In this document: positions 10,756 to 59,901 of the stretch, one piece after another | How positions within the stretch are numbered: position 1 is the first letter of the stretch | Layout: the number at the start of each line of letters is the position of its first letter | Made by a program: the position numbers and the translations under genes | Assembly (NCBI GenBank): GCA_029860345.1 | Contig: JAOUBJ010000003.1 | Location: 194,709-258,708 of the forward strand | Reading direction: 5' to 3' | DNA from: Candidatus Zixiibacteriota bacterium | GTDB lineage: Bacteria; Zixibacteria; MSB-5A5; GN15; FEB-12 | Length of the DNA: 64,000 nucleotides | The notes under the pieces: model-generated | What the model was told of the DNA's origin: nothing | The model's database searches: none | Seen by the model: the letters and a program-made list of their open reading frames with translations, nothing else

Positions 10756-11005
10756 TTTTGCTCCTATTAGGAAATCTCGGAACCGTCCAAGTTGTCTTCG
10801 GGCGAATATGTCGAAAACCGGTTTGTTTGTCAAGTAGCGTGCAGACTGGTGAGGGTGTTGAAAGACCCTGGAACTCGTTATTGCCAACCACGCACCTGGC
10901 TAACCCTCCTCCATCATACTGGCGAAGTCCGGAATCCACTCTTCTCTTGTGCCGTCATGCACCCCCGCATGACTGCTTGAGGCTTGTTGACAAGCCCGGT
11001 ATACG

Positions 11006-11053
11006 TTGTGTCGGGTCCTGGACCCCGCGATAGCGGGGGTTGTGACCCGACAC
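11006..11053. repeat. Nested-hairpin element N1, copy 1
   Basis: Outer arms TTGTGTCGGGTC (11006-11017) and GACCCGACAC (11044-11053) enclose an inner hairpin ACCCCGC/GCGGGGGT. The same outer arms and size recur at 18422-18468 and 24523-24570. Confidence 0.75.
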
Positions 11054-11162
11054 CCAACCCCATGTTGGACAGCGGCGGCGGGTCACACGGATTCGCTCGC
11101 GTCCGCCGCGGCGAACAGGACCCACCGCAACACATGGGTGGGGCGGGTGGCCCGTGGGCTTG

Positions 11163-11310
11163 GGGCTTGTTGAAAAAGCCTCTGCGCCGTCAGGTGACGT
11201 GCCTTGCGGTGCAAGTGCTGTAAGGCGACTCGCCTGACAGCCAGTGGGTTGGACGGCAGGTGTCGGGCGGGGTCGCCCAACACCACCCACGACATGGACC
11301 TTTTTCAACA
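11163..11310. repeat. 148-bp MITE-like element, copy A
   Basis: Ends are 11-bp perfect inverted repeats, TGTTGAAAAAG on the left and CTTTTTCAACA on the right. Internal palindromes include GTGTCGGGCG...GCCCAACAC and CGACTCGCCTGACAG. A second full-length copy of the same length without gaps lies at 19433-19580, and a reversed partial copy at 59704-59782. There is no open reading frame of note inside and no clear target duplication in the flanks. The intergenic 10756-11460 region holds only this, the N1 element and one short palindrome. Confidence 0.7.
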
Positions 11311-11390
11311 CTCCCCTTGCCCCGGGTTTCCAGAGCAAACCGCAGGTCCAAAACCATGGCCAGAAGGTGAGAAACACTGCTTGACCGTGT

Positions 11391-19366: not shown

Positions 19367-19432
19367 CCCGTCCTTGTGGTGCCTGAGTCTTCAGATTCGG
19401 GCACATAGAAAGCCTGGGTGGCCCGGACTTCA

Positions 19433-19580
19433 GGGCTTGTTGAAAAACCCTCTGCGCCGTCAGGTGACGTGCCTTGCGGTGCCGGTGCTGTAAGGCGACT
19501 CGCCTGACAGCTAGTGGGTAGGGCAGCAGGTGTCGGGCGGGGTCGCCCAACACCACCCACGATATGGACCTATATCAACA
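19433..19580. repeat. 148-bp MITE-like element, copy B
   Basis: Aligns without gaps to 11163-11310 with roughly 90 percent identity by eye, the longest exact stretch being the CGCCGTCAGGTGACGTGCCT segment and its flanks. The left terminal TGTTGAAAAA is intact, whereas the right end has decayed (TATATCAACA). It lies in the 1.2-kb gene-free region 19273-20459, which otherwise contains only P1/P2 palindromes and unassigned sequence. Confidence 0.7.
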
Positions 19581-20119
19581 GGTCCTTCAGTCCGGGTTTC
19601 ATTGCCCTGTGCCCGGCAGATGTCCACATCTGCCTGTCCATAGATGATCAACTTGAAAACGCAGCTTCTTGTAGGGCGAAACCTGGTAACACACCAATCG
19701 ACTTCATAGCACCATCTTTCTTGGGTACGGTACCCCACCAAGAGCGTTTCGCGACTGGTGGGTTCTTCAGTCCATAAGAACCCTATCAAATAGTAGCAGA
19801 ATGTGGCTGGAGGTCGGGACATAAAAGGACCGTCCAATGACCACCATCGCAAAACAAACCGCTGTACACATAACCGCCAAACAGTGTCGGTCCGGCAATC
19901 ACCATCAATCTTGTATCTCTAATGCAGGACTTTTCCGCCCTAAGCCATTTGCACACCATCTCGAAAACCACCTCAAATCCTGCATGGGTACAGACTTGAG
20001 ACATACGAAGAGGACTGCCGCGCTCTGAAAACACTTTTTCCGTAAAACAAACCCATTTCCACCAGCCTACACACTTCTGCAGGATGTACAGTAAGGGGTG
20101 CGCGTAGCGCGAAGAAACA

Positions 20120-20459: not shown

Positions 20460-23400
20460 TCACGGACAGGCCGCCGGCGGCGGGCCGCCGGTGAACATGT
20501 AGTCGACCAGATATACCAAGTCTGCTATGTCGATCGGCTCCACACCACTCCCGTCTATGTCTGCTTCATCAAAGCAAACTGGCTCTGGACCTCCGCTGAA
20601 CATGAAGTCGACGAGATAGACCAAATCGGAGATGTCAATCACGTCGCCGGGATCATAGTCGACGTTGCCTCGGATACCGACACAGTGGATGACAAAAGGA
20701 ATCGCACCGATATCGCCGCGACTGCCGTCGGAGTCGTCGTATTGTGAGTCTGGATGCCCGGCGTCGATGCAGGGGGAACTATTGAGAAGCGAGTAGTCGC
20801 CCTGAAGCGGATTCGTATACAGCGGGTCAACATGAATGTCGTTGGCACCCTCGGTTTCGGGCACGTCATAGTTGGGGTTGTTGTTCCAGGTGTTATTGTA
20901 ATCCAGTAGCGTAAAATCTGAAGCCGAGAGGGCGCCGACACCACGTTCCAGCGAGTTTGTCACAATGTTATTGATCGCATAGCCACCACCGGCGATTGAG
21001 AAGAAACCGCTTTCGTTGCCGTCAAACGTATTGTTGATGATCCAGGAATCGTGGGCGCCCCCCCGCAATCCCACACAGCCAATGCCGCCGTTATCGTAAA
21101 AGAGGCATCTGGTCACAAGCACCGCCGTTTCCTGACACCGAATGACCTCCCTATTGGCGGTGCCGACCGGGATGTTGTCTCTGAAAACACATGCCGAGAG
21201 CGTCGCCGAGACGGCGTTTTTTATTGCCACGGTGAACTCCTGGCCACCTCCGGTTATCGTAAAGCCGGCCAATTCGGTGCCTGACATCGGGACATCCTCG
21301 ATCGAAACGGTGGGTAACTCCGGGTCCATCGGCGTCAGCGTGGTCGTTTGGGCGCCTTCGGAGCTGGTTAAGATCAACTGCCGACCCAGGAAGTCAATGT
21401 TTTCCTGGTAGGTGCCGGGGGCTACCAGGATGGTATCGCCATGGAACCCGGATTCTACAGCGGTTTGGATGGTCGGACGCTGCCCGGGAACATGGATCAC
21501 AACATAGTGTGAGCGCGTCACAAACCACTCGGTATCAGACCAGTCGGATGTTTCAAAGCCGTCAAATGACCGGGCGCGCCACCAATAGGATTGCTCCGGG
21601 CTCAAATCTTGAAGGAAACCGGTGGATGTCATCAACGAATCTTCGTCAACGCCCTCGACCGACTCGACGAGCAAGATCAATCCCGGGTCCTCGTATAATT
21701 CAAAGTCGTATAACAGCGGATCGTTTTCGGCGTCCGACCCGTGATCCACGCTCAAGGAGACTATTGACACATGTACGGTCTCCCCCCCCACCGGGCTGAA
21801 CGGCATGGGTTCTGTGGGTGCACTGTTCATGTATAAAGTGCGAGTCCTCCAGCCACCCCATTGGATACCGTTGTACAACCTGACGCGAAAGTAGTACAGG
21901 GTTCCATCCTCAAGCGGCAGTCCGGAATAAACTGCGAAAGTGTCGGCCGTATAGACTTGTCCGGGACTCCACATCTCAGCCGTGGACCAATCCTGGTCAA
22001 CCCCCACCTCGATCTCGTATGCAATCTGTGACGGCAGGGTATCGACAAAGAGCCAGCGGAACTTCGGAGAGTGGTTTACAACGTGCCAGGGGTCCTCGGA
22101 TTCCAACTCCAGCATACCGACATACGGGAAGACGTCTGATAACCAAAGAGCGCCCATGTCGCTTCTGGTGCTGTCCGGATCGTTATACAGCGAGTCGGGA
22201 TGGCCGGCATTGATACAGGGCGAGCCAGGCAGCAGACGGTAATCGTGAGCAACCAACTCCAGGTACTCGGGGTCGACCTGAATGTCATTGGGCCCGGGAC
22301 TCAGGACGGGCATGTAGTCGGGGTTGTTGTTCCAAACATCGTTGTAATCCAGTAAGGTGAAGTCCCCCGATGATCCCGCGTTCACTCCCCCGTCGATTGA
22401 ATTGGTGACAATGTTATTGATGGCGTATCCACCACCAGCAATCGAGAAGAACCCTCGCTCGTTGCCGTCAAAAGTATTGTTGATAATCCAGCTATTCTCG
22501 GCGCCAGAGCGAAGACCGACGCAGCCTATGCCACCGTTATTATAGAAGACATTTCTTGTTACCACCACGCTGGCGTTGTTACACGAGACCACTTCGACGT
22601 TACCACTGCCGATCGGGATGTTGTCGTGAATGACGTTGTTCCTTATAAGAACGCCGGCACTTCCGGACACGGCAATGGTATGTGTGTCGCCCCCGCCGGT
22701 AATAGAGAAGCCGTTGATTTCCGTACCTATGGGCTCCTCGGATGCGATTTTGATCGTACTCGCCGCGGGGTTGGCCGGTCTCAGCACAGTGACTTCAGGT
22801 CCGGCGGTGCTAAGAATGACTATCTGTTTTCCGAGAAAATCGATATTCTCGGTATAATCGCCGGGACCCACCAGGATAGTGTCTCCATTGAAAGCAGTAT
22901 CGATAGCCTCCTGGATCGTCAGGTATTCTTCCGGAACGAGAATCGTTGGGTTAAAATTGGTAGACATACGACGCATCGACCAGGTGCCCCACGCTGAACC
23001 ATTACTGACTCTTACCCGCACATATAGATCTGAGTGGTCGGCTAACGGTAAACCGGCATAGACGGCCTGGGTATCGGGAGAGGTCACAGCATCAGTAGAC
23101 CAGAGATCGGCCGATGACCAACTTCCGTCCGAATCAACCTCGATCTCATACTGGACCTGCCCGACCCCCGATGTGTCCGTGAACGTCCAGTAGATAGCTG
23201 GTGTCGGTGATGACAGAACGTCCCCATGAGCATCTGCTCCGAAGTTTAGTTTTGCGGCCAGCGGATACTGGTCCGACCATGCGTGCAGAGGCACAGCGCC
23301 TATGTCGTTGCGGCTACTGTCGGGGTCGTCATACTCGCTATCGGGGTGCCCGGCGTTGATACAGGGTGATAAATCCGATAGTGAATAGTTCCTGCTGATC

Positions 23401-24152
23401 GCATCAAGGTAGAGGGGATCAACGTGTATATCGTTGGGGCCTTCAATTTCCGGCATGGAATAATCTGTTGGGTTATTCCAGATGTCGTTGTAGTCAAGCA
23501 GCGTGAAGTTGGAAGTTTCATGGACGACGACACCCAACTCAATAGAGTTGGTCACGATATTGTTCAGGGCGAAGCCGCCGCTGGCGATGGAGAAGAAGCC
23601 ACGCTCATTGTTGTCAAAGGTGTTGTTGACAATCCAGCTTCCCTGAGCCCCCACCCGGAGACCTACGCAGCCGATACCGCCGTTGCCGGAGAAGATATTC
23701 CGAGTCACGTGGGCCGATGCGTCGAGACAGGAAATCACCTCAACGTTTTCACTTCCGACCGGAATATTGTCGCAGAAAAGGTTGTACCAGATCGTAGGCG
23801 ACGCCGAGCCATCAACGCGTAAAGTGTGGGTAACGCCACCACCCCTTACCGTGAACCCTCGGAACTCGGTACCGGGCAGTTCACCGTTGCCGATGACCAC
23901 GGTATGAACGTTTGGCTCCGCCGGCGTGAGAATCGTGCTGTCGGCACCCTTAGACCCCAGCAGCACAATAGAATGTCCGCCGAACACAATGTTCTCGGTA
24001 TAGAGACCCGGTGCCACCAGCACCGTGTCCCCGTCGGAGGCGGCATCAATTCCTGCCTGGATCGTGGACTGGTCCGTTGGTATGTGGATCGTGGCCGCGT
24101 TGAGCGCACCGGCGCAGAGCACCAGCATCGCCACAGAGAGAAGACACTTCAT
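20460..24152 (-). CDS. Secreted triplicated beta-helix protein with dockerin-like C-terminus
   Basis: 1230 residues. The ATG at 24152 has GGAGG in front and opens a signal peptide (MKCLLSVAMLVLCAGALNA). Three right-handed parallel beta-helix modules of about 300 residues follow, each beginning IxxPxxxxTIQxAIDxAxxGDTxLVxPGxYxENI and each repeating NNTFDxNERGFFSIA and FTLLDYNDxWNN almost word for word. Between them are FN3/Ig-like segments. The C-terminus has two EF-hand-like dockerin repeats (GNVDYDPGDVIDISDLVYLV and its partner) ending YMFTGGPPP. Probably a surface or extracellular polysaccharide-binding or cleaving protein; no lyase catalytic residues were identified. Flanked by repeat-rich gaps on both sides. 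Confidence 0.85.
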   Translation of the reverse strand: MKCLLSVAMLVLCAGALNAATIHIPTDQSTIQAGIDAASDGDTVLVAPGLYTENIVFGGHSIVLLGSKGADSTILTPAEPNVHTVVIGNGELPGTEFRGFTVRGGGVTHTLRVDGSASPTIWYNLFCDNIPVGSENVEVISCLDASAHVTRNIFSGNGGIGCVGLRVGAQGSWIVNNTFDNNERGFFSIASGGFALNNIVTNSIELGVVVHETSNFTLLDYNDIWNNPTDYSMPEIEGPNDIHVDPLYLDAISRNYSLSDLSPCINAGHPDSEYDDPDSSRNDIGAVPLHAWSDQYPLAAKLNFGADAHGDVLSSPTPAIYWTFTDTSGVGQVQYEIEVDSDGSWSSADLWSTDAVTSPDTQAVYAGLPLADHSDLYVRVRVSNGSAWGTWSMRRMSTNFNPTILVPEEYLTIQEAIDTAFNGDTILVGPGDYTENIDFLGKQIVILSTAGPEVTVLRPANPAASTIKIASEEPIGTEINGFSITGGGDTHTIAVSGSAGVLIRNNVIHDNIPIGSGNVEVVSCNNASVVVTRNVFYNNGGIGCVGLRSGAENSWIINNTFDGNERGFFSIAGGGYAINNIVTNSIDGGVNAGSSGDFTLLDYNDVWNNNPDYMPVLSPGPNDIQVDPEYLELVAHDYRLLPGSPCINAGHPDSLYNDPDSTRSDMGALWLSDVFPYVGMLELESEDPWHVVNHSPKFRWLFVDTLPSQIAYEIEVGVDQDWSTAEMWSPGQVYTADTFAVYSGLPLEDGTLYYFRVRLYNGIQWGGWRTRTLYMNSAPTEPMPFSPVGGETVHVSIVSLSVDHGSDAENDPLLYDFELYEDPGLILLVESVEGVDEDSLMTSTGFLQDLSPEQSYWWRARSFDGFETSDWSDTEWFVTRSHYVVIHVPGQRPTIQTAVESGFHGDTILVAPGTYQENIDFLGRQLILTSSEGAQTTTLTPMDPELPTVSIEDVPMSGTELAGFTITGGGQEFTVAIKNAVSATLSACVFRDNIPVGTANREVIRCQETAVLVTRCLFYDNGGIGCVGLRGGAHDSWIINNTFDGNESGFFSIAGGGYAINNIVTNSLERGVGALSASDFTLLDYNNTWNNNPNYDVPETEGANDIHVDPLYTNPLQGDYSLLNSSPCIDAGHPDSQYDDSDGSRGDIGAIPFVIHCVGIRGNVDYDPGDVIDISDLVYLVDFMFSGGPEPVCFDEADIDGSGVEPIDIADLVYLVDYMFTGGPPPAACP

Positions 24153-24362
24153 CGGTCCTCCGCATTGGCCGTCAGTCATGTATCCCCGAAAGATAGGCGG
24201 GGATGGCAATTCTGTCAATCCCAAACGCAGGTTTTCGGTTATCTGTCAACTGGAGCGGGCCGCTATCCAGTCTTGGCTTCGGGTGGCAAGTGGAAGCCAC
24301 TTATGGCCGTCCTCGGCTGCCCCTTGCGTCCGCGGTGGCACGGACGATCACAATTGTTGTGG

Positions 24363-29722: not shown

Positions 29723-29828
29723 CGACGCTCGTGTGCGTCAACAAAGACTGCACACGACAATCTGGTCAAACTAAAGCGGATTCGAAGAGCCCCTGATGAC
29801 ACCGGGGGCCCTTCTGCCAATCTCGAAT

Positions 29829-31193
29829 CTACGGACAAGGCTCCGGTGCAGGCCCGCCGGTGAACATGTAGTCGACAAGCAATACCAAGTCGGAGATGTC
29901 AATTCCACCGTTGGCATCCATGTCGGCCTCCTCGAATACCGGCGGTGCCGGACCACCGGTGAACATGAAATCGACAAGGTATACTAAGTCAGTTATTGTT
30001 ATCTCGTCTGTTGGGTCAGCGTCGATATTACCCCTGATTCCTACACACTCAAACATGGCGGCACAAGCATCGCCCACACCATCCCCGTCGGAGTCGGTCT
30101 GGTCTGGGTTGTACACCGTAGGACAGTTGTCATCAGCTGCACAAAGATCGTCGCCATCGGCATCGTTCGCGGGGTCGGCGGGACAAGGGTCACATAGGTT
30201 TCCGAATTCGTCGCCATCACTGTTCTCTTGTTGAGGATTGTATTGAGTTGGGCAATTGTCGCACTCATCACCTATGCCGTCAATGTCGCCATCCTCTTGT
30301 CCGGGATTGTCATCATTGGGACAGTTGTCACAAATATCACCGAAATTGTCACCATCGTCATCCGCCTGGTCCGCATTACTGACCGTGGGACAGTTGTCAC
30401 ACGCATCGCCGAGACCGTCCTGATCTTCGTCTGTCTGAGTTGGGTTGTCTACAGTCGGGCAATTGTCGACATCTGCGCAGACACCATCGCCATCGGCATC
30501 ATCATACGGGTCGTAGAGACAAACATCACACGAGTCGCCGGGCCAATCGCCATCGGCGTTTTCCTGCAACGGGTTGAAGAGATCAGGGCAGTTGTCACAG
30601 GCGTCCGCGATGCCATCGCCATCGGTATCAGTCCTAACTGCATCACACTCGACATTAAAACAGTGCGGCCCATCCCATGACGGAAACACGTTTTGATACG
30701 GGTAATACCACATCCATCGGTTCTGGGGTGGGACCCAGGAGGAATCCAGGCAAATCGCTCGCCCAACATAATCACTCCCTATCGGTCCGATCTGGATCGT
30801 AAACGCGACATCGTCAAATCCGGCCGGCATCCCTACTGTGAAGAGTCTGCTTCCACTGAACCACACCGTGTCCGCCGCCAGTCCGTCGGTATTCTGCTGT
30901 CTAATCACAAACACGAAGTCAAACTGCTCTCCGCCCAAGGTGCCTGTGGTGTCGGCAATTGTTGTATCCCAATTGACCCCACTCAATGAGTAGACTCGAA
31001 AGCCGTTGGCAATGGCCGCGTAATCGTGATTGTCGGCTGTTACTCGCAAATAGAATGTGATCGGTACGTCGATCTCCAAATCTCCACCCGGTGTCATGCC
31101 ATCCACGTGGTCAAGGGAAATACTCTGACCGAGAACTACCCCACACGATGCGATCATCAGAAATGCCCCAATCACGCAAGTAAGCTTCAGCAT
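29829..31193 (-). CDS. Secreted TSP3-repeat protein with dockerin-like C-terminus
   Basis: 454 residues. The ATG at 31193 follows GGAGG and starts a signal peptide (MLKLTCVIGAFLMIASCGVV). Residues about 25-180 form a beta-rich domain without an assigned family. About eight thrombospondin type 3 repeats (DxDGDGxxDxCDNCPxxxNPxQ) fill 185-370 and would bind many calcium ions. The end has two dockerin-like repeats, GNIDADPTDEITITDLVYLV and DISDLVLLVDYMFTGGPAP, very like the end of the protein at 20460-24152. Predicted extracellular; the binding partner is unknown since no cohesin is in the window. Confidence 0.87.
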   Translation of the reverse strand: MLKLTCVIGAFLMIASCGVVLGQSISLDHVDGMTPGGDLEIDVPITFYLRVTADNHDYAAIANGFRVYSLSGVNWDTTIADTTGTLGGEQFDFVFVIRQQNTDGLAADTVWFSGSRLFTVGMPAGFDDVAFTIQIGPIGSDYVGRAICLDSSWVPPQNRWMWYYPYQNVFPSWDGPHCFNVECDAVRTDTDGDGIADACDNCPDLFNPLQENADGDWPGDSCDVCLYDPYDDADGDGVCADVDNCPTVDNPTQTDEDQDGLGDACDNCPTVSNADQADDDGDNFGDICDNCPNDDNPGQEDGDIDGIGDECDNCPTQYNPQQENSDGDEFGNLCDPCPADPANDADGDDLCAADDNCPTVYNPDQTDSDGDGVGDACAAMFECVGIRGNIDADPTDEITITDLVYLVDFMFTGGPAPPVFEEADMDANGGIDISDLVLLVDYMFTGGPAPEPCP

Positions 31194-34699: not shown

Positions 34700-34940
34700 C
34701 ACCTTTCGACTCCGGCCAGGGTGACTTGGTCGGCGGAGACAAGCCCCGCCGCTACGCGGAAAGAGCCGAGTCGTTGTGGCAGGCGAGTCTTCAGACTCGG
34801 CTGCAAGGACCCACGCGATCTGAAGATCACGCGGGCACAACGCGCTCACCTGTCGACTGCTCTCACGCATCGACTGCGCTCACCCTTCGACTGCTCTCAC
34901 GCATCGACTGCGCTCACCCTTCGACTGCGCTCAGGGTGAC
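34700..34940. repeat. P1/P3 repeat cluster with a 34-bp tandem duplication
   Basis: A degenerate P1 copy (34700-34724) and a P3 palindrome (about 34791-34803) precede a tandem pair of 34-bp units at 34861-34894 and 34895-34928, made of TCTCACGCATCGACTGCGCT followed by a P1 half. The array ends in a complete P1 right arm at 34940. It occupies the gap 34655-35013, in which I see no gene. Confidence 0.7.
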
Positions 34941-49161: not shown

Positions 49162-49290
49162 CAGGTGCTGTCAGGTGACTCGCCTGACGGCCATTTGGGA
49201 GAGAACAGGGCGTGGTGCCCGCGTGATATTCGGATCGCGCGGGAGTAGACACAGGGGGATCGACTCGTGGCCGAGTCTGAAGACTCGGCC
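49162..49290. repeat. P4 and P3 palindromes
   Basis: P4 hairpin (GTCAGGTGACTCGCCTGAC) at about 49171-49190, which is an internal part of the MITE-like element, and P3 (arms GGCCGAGTCT/AGACTCGGCC) at 49269-49290. They lie in the gap between the DUF169 and UroD-family genes. Confidence 0.6.
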
Positions 49291-59703: not shown

Positions 59704-59782
59704 TGGGTGGCGTTGGGCGACCCCGCCCGACGCCTACCGGTCAACCTGCCTGCTGTCAGGCGAGTCGCCTAACAGCACATGC
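59704..59782. repeat. Reversed partial copy of the MITE-like element
   Basis: In reverse orientation it matches the right-hand half of the 148-bp element: GGGTGGCGTTGGGCGACCCC, then CTGTCAGGCGAGTCGCCTAA. The ends TGTTGAAAAAG are absent. Confidence 0.6.
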
Positions 59783-59901
59783 AACGTGCTGGTTCGCGTC
59801 ATTGCAGCGGATGGGTGGCCCGGACTTCAGTCCGGGATTCAAGGCTCTGATAGACGTGAACGAACCCACGAGCCGCATCGCTCTTGGTGGGATACCGAAG
59901 T

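Follow-up and report, generated by a model that had tools for sequence, protein, structure and literature searches.

IS1272, an element of the IS1182 family found in staphylococci, is described in the available part of its report as targeting inverted repeats or stem-loops of unrelated sequence, replacing the whole target stem-loop and leaving no duplication (PMC5678879). Fig. 13 of that report (steps 3c-6c) also holds a hypothetical branch in which joining takes place at the loop, which is thereby duplicated. Insertion sequences that target REPs have been surveyed, and the accessible portion of that survey names the families IS3, IS110, IS4, IS256 and IS5 (PMC1525189); the term 'IS1182' is absent from the survey text. 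For the CGTC repeats, the available text of a further paper shows its authors leaving open the possibility of movement by other transposases (PMC3733652).

Here, a short repeat was analyzed in a stretch of 64,000 nucleotides from a Candidatus Zixiibacteriota bacterium (assembly GCA_029860345.1, contig JAOUBJ010000003.1), hereafter called the window. Inspection of the DNA letters without database searches (the sequence-only reading) had proposed that the repeat is a non-autonomous mobile element. The results very probably identify it as a MITE moved by an IS1182-type transposase, carrying a REPIN interior and landing at the apices of palindromes, with host copies that are probably stranded.

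Results

The sequence-only reading had placed two full copies of a 148-bp repeat in the window, with 11-bp inverted ends and a third partial copy in reverse orientation. Sequence alignment gave a length of 153 bp for both copies, which are present in full and align with each other without gaps as had been stated. The left boundary was placed correctly, whereas the right one had been set 5 bp short of the true end. The ends are indeed inverted, over 15 bp (GGGCTTGTTGAAAAA) and not 11; the 11-bp pair TGTTGAAAAAG/CTTTTTCAACA is exact in copy 1 only, the right end of copy 2 having diverged to CCTATATCAACAGGTCC. The minus-strand match proposed as a third copy is real and extends over only a 73-bp core (59706-59778). 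The features of the two copies and their surroundings are as follows.

11163-11315, plus strand: MITE copy 1 (class A), 153 bp, ends GGGCTTGTTGAAAAA / TTTTTCAACACTCCC
11159-11162, no strand: left 4-bp target duplication of copy 1, CTTG
11316-11319, no strand: right 4-bp target duplication of copy 1, CTTG
11146-11158, plus strand: left half of the host REP palindrome split by copy 1 (GGTGGCCCGTGGG), from sequence
11320-11330, plus strand: right half of the host REP palindrome split by copy 1 (CCCCGGGTTTC), from sequence
19433-19585, plus strand: MITE copy 2 (class A), 153 bp
19429-19432, no strand: left 4-bp target duplication of copy 2, TTCA
19586-19589, no strand: right 4-bp target duplication of copy 2, TTCA
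19417-19428, plus strand: left half of the host REP split by copy 2 (GGTGGCCCGGAC)
19590-19596, plus strand: right half of the host REP split by copy 2 (GTCCGGG)
10980-11136, plus strand: class-B MITE lying just upstream of copy 1, truncated, with left end AGGCTTGTTGACAAG and no right end

A genome search for the element, suggested earlier as a check, returned at least 43 BLAST matches to copy 1 with flanks, dispersed over many contigs of the 4.76-Mb host genome and far above chance; this number is a lower bound, with 40 of 228 candidates scored. In the host genome the end motif CTTGTTGAWAAA was counted 26 times and a reversed-pattern control once. Class-A elements are short and non-coding, have terminal inverted repeats and are fixed in length at 152-154 bp. 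The random variation in length and the shared flanks that would have pointed to simple duplication were not found: outer flanks of the copies are only 17-47% identical, which excludes simple segmental duplication. The truncated class-B element upstream of copy 1 is 97% identical to an intact 179-bp copy on another contig (C19). The tetranucleotide CTTG precedes both this truncated element and copy 1, and also follows copy 1. One DNA search was dominated by repeated coding motifs (FNDGGPAP/DLVYLVDYMF, window positions 20460-24224 and 29824-30002), which recur genome-wide and which we take to be dockerin-like.

Target duplications were counted on 75 elements kept from 102 candidate end pairs. 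Contig-edge cases, overlapping alternatives and pairs in which either end scored below 12/15 or the two ends summed to less than 26 were removed, and lengths of 80-235 or 1405-1420 were retained; these filters also removed true-looking host copies (for example L008, L030 and L006). Exact 4-bp duplications were observed in 41 of the 75 elements, which are not independent insofar as several come from one lineage or genome and many from loci chosen by their end-motif match; in 500 random re-pairings of the flanks the number averaged 2.1 and never exceeded 7. Exact duplications of 2, 3, 5 and 6 bp were found in one, two, one and two of the 75, at or near chance, and the constant duplication length is thus 4 bp. 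Among class-A elements the exact duplications include CTTG (twice), TTCA, CAAG, TTAG and TGAA. Among the 34 elements without an exact duplication, a single mismatch separates the two flanking tetranucleotides in 12; decay, recombination or wrong joins in draft assemblies may explain the others.

The targets of the 41 duplicated elements were restored by joining the flanks and keeping a single copy of the duplicated bases; 16 of the restored targets form a stem of 6 bp or longer. In 14 of the 41 the centre of this stem lies no more than 1 nt from the duplication (mean 1.93 and maximum 7 for shuffled partners), and in the other 27 no such centred stem was present, indicating that hairpins are favoured and not required. 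The target of copy 2 is a perfect hairpin, CCCGGAC-TTCA-GTCCGGG, and the window contains a related site that has no insert.

59814-59836, plus strand: insert-free REP (GGTGGCCCGGACTTCAGTCCGGG), a related empty site for copy 2; 23 bp identical to the copy-2 flanks minus one TTCA

In the stem split by copy 1, CCCGTGGG-CTTG-CCCCGGG, a single base is bulged out. Further REPs that served as landing sites read ATTCCCGC-GCAG-GCGGGAAT and CCCACCA-TTTA-TGGTGGG, and one host copy (L069) lies in the T-run after a terminator-like hairpin. Replacement of the stem-loop, as by IS1272, was not seen at these sites: the stem halves remain and 4 bp are duplicated, as the comparison of copy 2 with 59814-59836 illustrates. 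Targeting of palindromes, a reported trait of some IS1182 members, is displayed here both by insertion sequence copies and by the MITEs.

Element-free sites in relatives had been suggested as a further check. The copy-1 locus lacks the element in all four same-genus genomes that align on both sides. The aligned blocks around copy 1 lie 21-32 bp apart in three of these genomes (G001, G005 and G003), as opposed to 625 bp in the host, and 203 bp apart in the fourth (G002), as opposed to 776 bp in the host. Among these genomes, only the host has the block comprising the truncated class-B MITE and copy 1. Since the whole repeat block is missing in the relatives, what they show for copy 1 is an empty locus, without the base-level precision of an empty site. 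No precise orthologous empty site was found for copy 2, whose right flank gave no alignment with relatives; one of them (L273) has a class-C MITE, lying in a similar REP, in the corresponding intergenic region.

These data bear on whether the repeat is mobile at all. A repeat that is intergenic, structured and multi-copy could be a conserved regulatory RNA or the product of ordinary segmental duplication of the DNA between genes. Such an immobile repeat is extremely improbable given the unrelated flanks, the spread over many contigs, the target duplications and the locus empty in relatives, and no Rfam family matched within the window at the gathering threshold; both explanations were considered and dropped. 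The reading as a non-autonomous mobile element holds, on the fixed length, terminal inverted repeats, exact 4-bp duplications, unrelated flanks, element-free loci in relatives and a full-length relative that bears a transposase between the same ends.

The 15-bp outer ends, GGGCTTGTTGAWAAA, bound a MITE family. Their motif was found in 26 of the 54 host-family genomes, where the control gave no match. A scan of named species genomes for two ends spaced 118-148 bp apart returned 27 stretches, 22 of them from entries titled Candidatus Zixiibacteriota and five from entries with only 'bacterium' as title. In one relative (G062), two perfect ends enclose a 1416-bp element with a 456-aa gene. The product passes the NCBIfam IS1182 model NF033551 (357.7 bits, cut-off 270) and also matches PF13751 and PF05598. 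By its transposase, the autonomous partner belongs to the IS1182 family, and the similarity seen between the MITE and this insertion sequence is confined to the ends. A fixed, short, non-coding unit with a constant duplication length and an autonomous element sharing its ends is a MITE family.

Matches to the 1416-bp insertion sequence occur in 16 of the 54 family genomes, several with the same ends. The copy in G016 sits in CCCACAG-CAAG-CTGTGGG with CAAG duplicated, the copy in G036 is flanked by duplicated TTTA, and the copy in G003, from the same genus as the host, has GTTC duplicated and contains one internal stop. The first copy found (L171) has no matching duplication (TAAG/TTTA), nor does L198, and the relative in G024 (L196) has different and weaker ends. 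No IS1182-family transposase was detected in the host genome, by matches to the insertion sequence or to PF13751. A transposase gene bounded by the same ends, for which a search had been recommended, is therefore present in relatives, with none detected in the host. In G026 many draft contigs end about 100 bp past an insertion sequence or MITE end, and copies are accordingly undercounted in draft genomes.

The interior of the class-A elements is a unit in its own right, with the following features in the window.

11215-11287, plus strand: REPIN-like core in copy 1, two hairpins, GGTG-type feet at both ends
11217-11241, plus strand: core hairpin 1 (GCTGTMAGGCG-ACT-CGCCTGACAGC), 95% of pair cells kept in 45 copies
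11259-11284, plus strand: core hairpin 2 (GGTGTCGGGCG-GGGT-CGCCCAACACC), pairing retained in 88% of cells over 45 copies, one pair mismatched in most copies
19485-19557, plus strand: REPIN-like core in copy 2
59706-59778, minus strand: stand-alone or fully decayed REPIN-like core, no recognisable MITE ends

Compared with the MITE, the minus-strand stretch is 86% identical in the core, 27% in the left arm and 50% in the right arm. BLAST matches in the host are either full-length or end near positions 53 and 125 of the 148-base query. Among 48 gathered copies the core is at least 80% identical, ungapped over 73 bp, in 45, and in 16 of these both arms are less than 50% identical. An inverted pair of REP hairpins is therefore kept where the arms do not match, as in a REPIN, with one hairpin at each side and GGTG-type feet facing outwards. 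The hairpin pair counts were made on the 45 copies; variation at the pairs is mostly one-sided, so that conservation of the palindromes is demonstrated more than compensatory change. In nine core copies, one pair of hairpin 1 is an A-G mismatch. The six copies with the best arm matches to copy 1 (L001-L006) all read GTGCTGTAAGG at this pair, and their possession of a single core variant fits a spread of class A as 153-bp units. A search of the host genome with the left arm gave 24 matches and, judged by coordinates, no intact class-A MITE free of the REPIN; the short matches are fragments or end motifs of other classes. Elsewhere in the window, at 49162-49244, core hairpin 1 adjoins a different REP (CGCGATC..GATCGCGCGGG) in a mosaic of REP types, and at 34842-34936 a REP has multiplied as a 17-bp tandem repeat built on one half of the CCCTTCGACTGCGCTCAGGG palindrome.

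The host genome contains five Y1/RAYT-type genes (L061-L065). Of the three scanned with the NCBIfam RAYT model NF047646, L061 and L065 pass, and L064 scores 75.5 bits, just below the cut-off of 80. None of the five has a core-type REP alongside; all are flanked by other hairpins, and these genes were dropped as owners of the core because their flanks carry other REPs. Each has its own palindrome family beside it, a rich REP/RAYT set for one genome. The hairpins beside L061-L063 are GTAG-footed and those beside L064 and L065 GGTG-footed, and L064 adjoins GGTGGCCCGGACGTTCGTCCGGG, the same kind of REP as the landing site of copies 1 and 2. In sister genera, core-like REPs lie directly on both sides of three RAYT-type genes (L103, L104 and L110), two of which (L103 and L104) pass NF047646. 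The same REP thus stands beside a RAYT gene in sister genera and not in the host genome. This arrangement implies that the core is, or was, mobile by a second system, and the best interpretation is that of a REPIN for which the host genome yielded no RAYT.

With RAYT-type genes at hand in the host, the whole repeat might be taken for a REPIN or BIME moved by RAYT only, its outer ends being passive flanks. The 73-bp core is the most widespread part of the repeat and occurs without the ends, as this would predict. IS200/IS605-type and RAYT movement is not known to yield inverted ends with 4-bp duplications of the kind present in 41 of the 75 elements, and the same ends also bound unrelated interiors and a full IS1182 element. 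We regard this explanation as very unlikely overall; for the 153-bp unit it is refuted by the duplications and by the insertion sequence with the same ends, and for the core alone RAYT-only movement is plausible.

Clustering of 71 short elements by interior gave 12 groups, with 27, 12, 12, 6, 5, 2 and 2 members and five singles. Class A is one of the two 12-member groups. The largest group has two long hairpins with variable tips, class C consists of the GTCATTGCGAG repeat, and other groups contain REPs with GTAG or CCCTTCGACT motifs; the CCCTTCGACT repeat also occurs in 14 copies within the window. The same ends enclose about 12 unrelated interiors, mostly hairpin repeats of REP type, where 'about 12' and 'mostly' are descriptive since grouping was by sequence match and the REP character of most interiors was judged by eye and from the fold of a single member per group. 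In class-B interiors (for example L118, L119 and L128) long hairpins have conserved outer stems and tips that differ yet remain palindromic, which suggests compensatory or symmetrising change. That the interior is a separately occurring REPIN-type unit, that the ends carry other interiors and that the landing sites are often REP hairpins all lay beyond the reach of the sequence-only reading.

One extension of the proposal is that the MITEs actively take up REPs from their landing sites: they would insert repeatedly into neighbouring REPs, and subsequent loss of internal sequence would leave new MITEs with a REP pair as interior. The variety of unrelated interiors behind the same ends and the preference for REPs as landing sites are in keeping with it. 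No intermediate was seen, however, and no core-less class-A MITE was recognised by the left-arm search of the host genome. An 81-bp element (L176) matches both ends of a 169-bp element (L130) and lacks the REP pair of the latter; it looks like a deletion derivative, not a pre-insertion state. Contig numbers and lengths agree between the two, which suggests that they come from one assembly. Insertion of REPINs into existing MITEs by a RAYT would be an equally simple route, and capture by landing appears doubtful.

Discussion

The common ends, the 4-bp duplications, the preference for palindrome apices and the IS1182 element that shares the ends are direct observations. The mechanism that we propose for them is a MITE of 153 bp moved in trans by an IS1182-family DDE transposase. 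This enzyme would bind the 15-bp GGGCTTGTTGAWAAA ends and join them to the target with a 4-bp stagger, producing the 4-bp duplication. It would prefer to insert at the apex of a short palindrome, in most cases a REP hairpin and in one case a site resembling a terminator. Where the pattern is clearest, the 4 bp that are duplicated coincide with the hairpin apex, which suggests recognition of structure; the transposase may read an extruded cruciform or hairpin, not a sequence. The class-A interior would be a REPIN that is, or formerly was, mobile through a RAYT (HUH, Y1) system, and class-A copies appear to have spread as 153-bp units. Neither an IS1182 transposase nor a RAYT with the core REP beside it was detected in the host genome. 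The copies there are therefore probably stranded, or else dependent on an enzyme that has since been lost or that arrives from elsewhere.

A broader reading is offered tentatively, as possible though short of even odds. MITEs that read hairpin shape, open and duplicate the apex might repeatedly take up REPs as cargo, such that two kinds of transposon are nested and a structure-guided DDE transposase spreads HUH-type REPINs without RAYTs. If this were true, REPs would be both landing pad and passenger, and the elements would provide a natural example of the 'loop duplication' branch, which is hypothetical in the IS1272 model.

The findings link MITEs of DDE transposons with RAYT/REPIN repeats, two fields that are usually separate, and offer a second route for the spread of REPs within a genome. 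The 75 natural insertions provide a testable claim, that IS1182 transposases read DNA hairpin structure, and raise the question of why IS1272 deletes the stem-loop while others duplicate the apex. For annotation, the MITEs account for part of the dense intergenic repeats in a little-studied phylum. The parts are of known kinds; their combination, in which REPs are both landing site and cargo of IS1182 MITEs and the hairpin apex is duplicated where IS1272 would delete the stem-loop, was not found in the open-licence papers searched, which also gave no account of REP-carrying IS1182 MITEs or of such elements in this phylum.

The known systems each resemble the elements in part. Some relatives of the palindromic REP families tagged with GTAG or CGTC may sit inside these MITEs, although IS1182 ends are not described for those repeats in the available part of the report (PMC3733652). 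Insertion into REP palindromes is shared with IS1397, ISKpn1, ISPpu9/10 and ISRm22, for which the accessible portion of the survey does not describe MITEs that carry REPs (PMC1525189). Compared with REPINs and RAYTs as presented in the available text of PMC3116915, the core is likewise an inverted REP doublet of similar size (73 bp), its REPs adjoin RAYT genes in sister genera and lone copies are abundant. It differs in that the feet are GGTG and not GTAG, the REPIN is also the interior of a DDE-type MITE, and no cognate RAYT was found in the host genome. With IS1272, as described in the available part of its report (PMC5678879), the elements share the transposase family of the autonomous partner and the recognition of target stem-loops. 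Unlike with IS1272, the stem-loop is kept, split at its apex, and 4 bp are duplicated, an outcome that looks like the loop-duplication branch of the IS1272 model.
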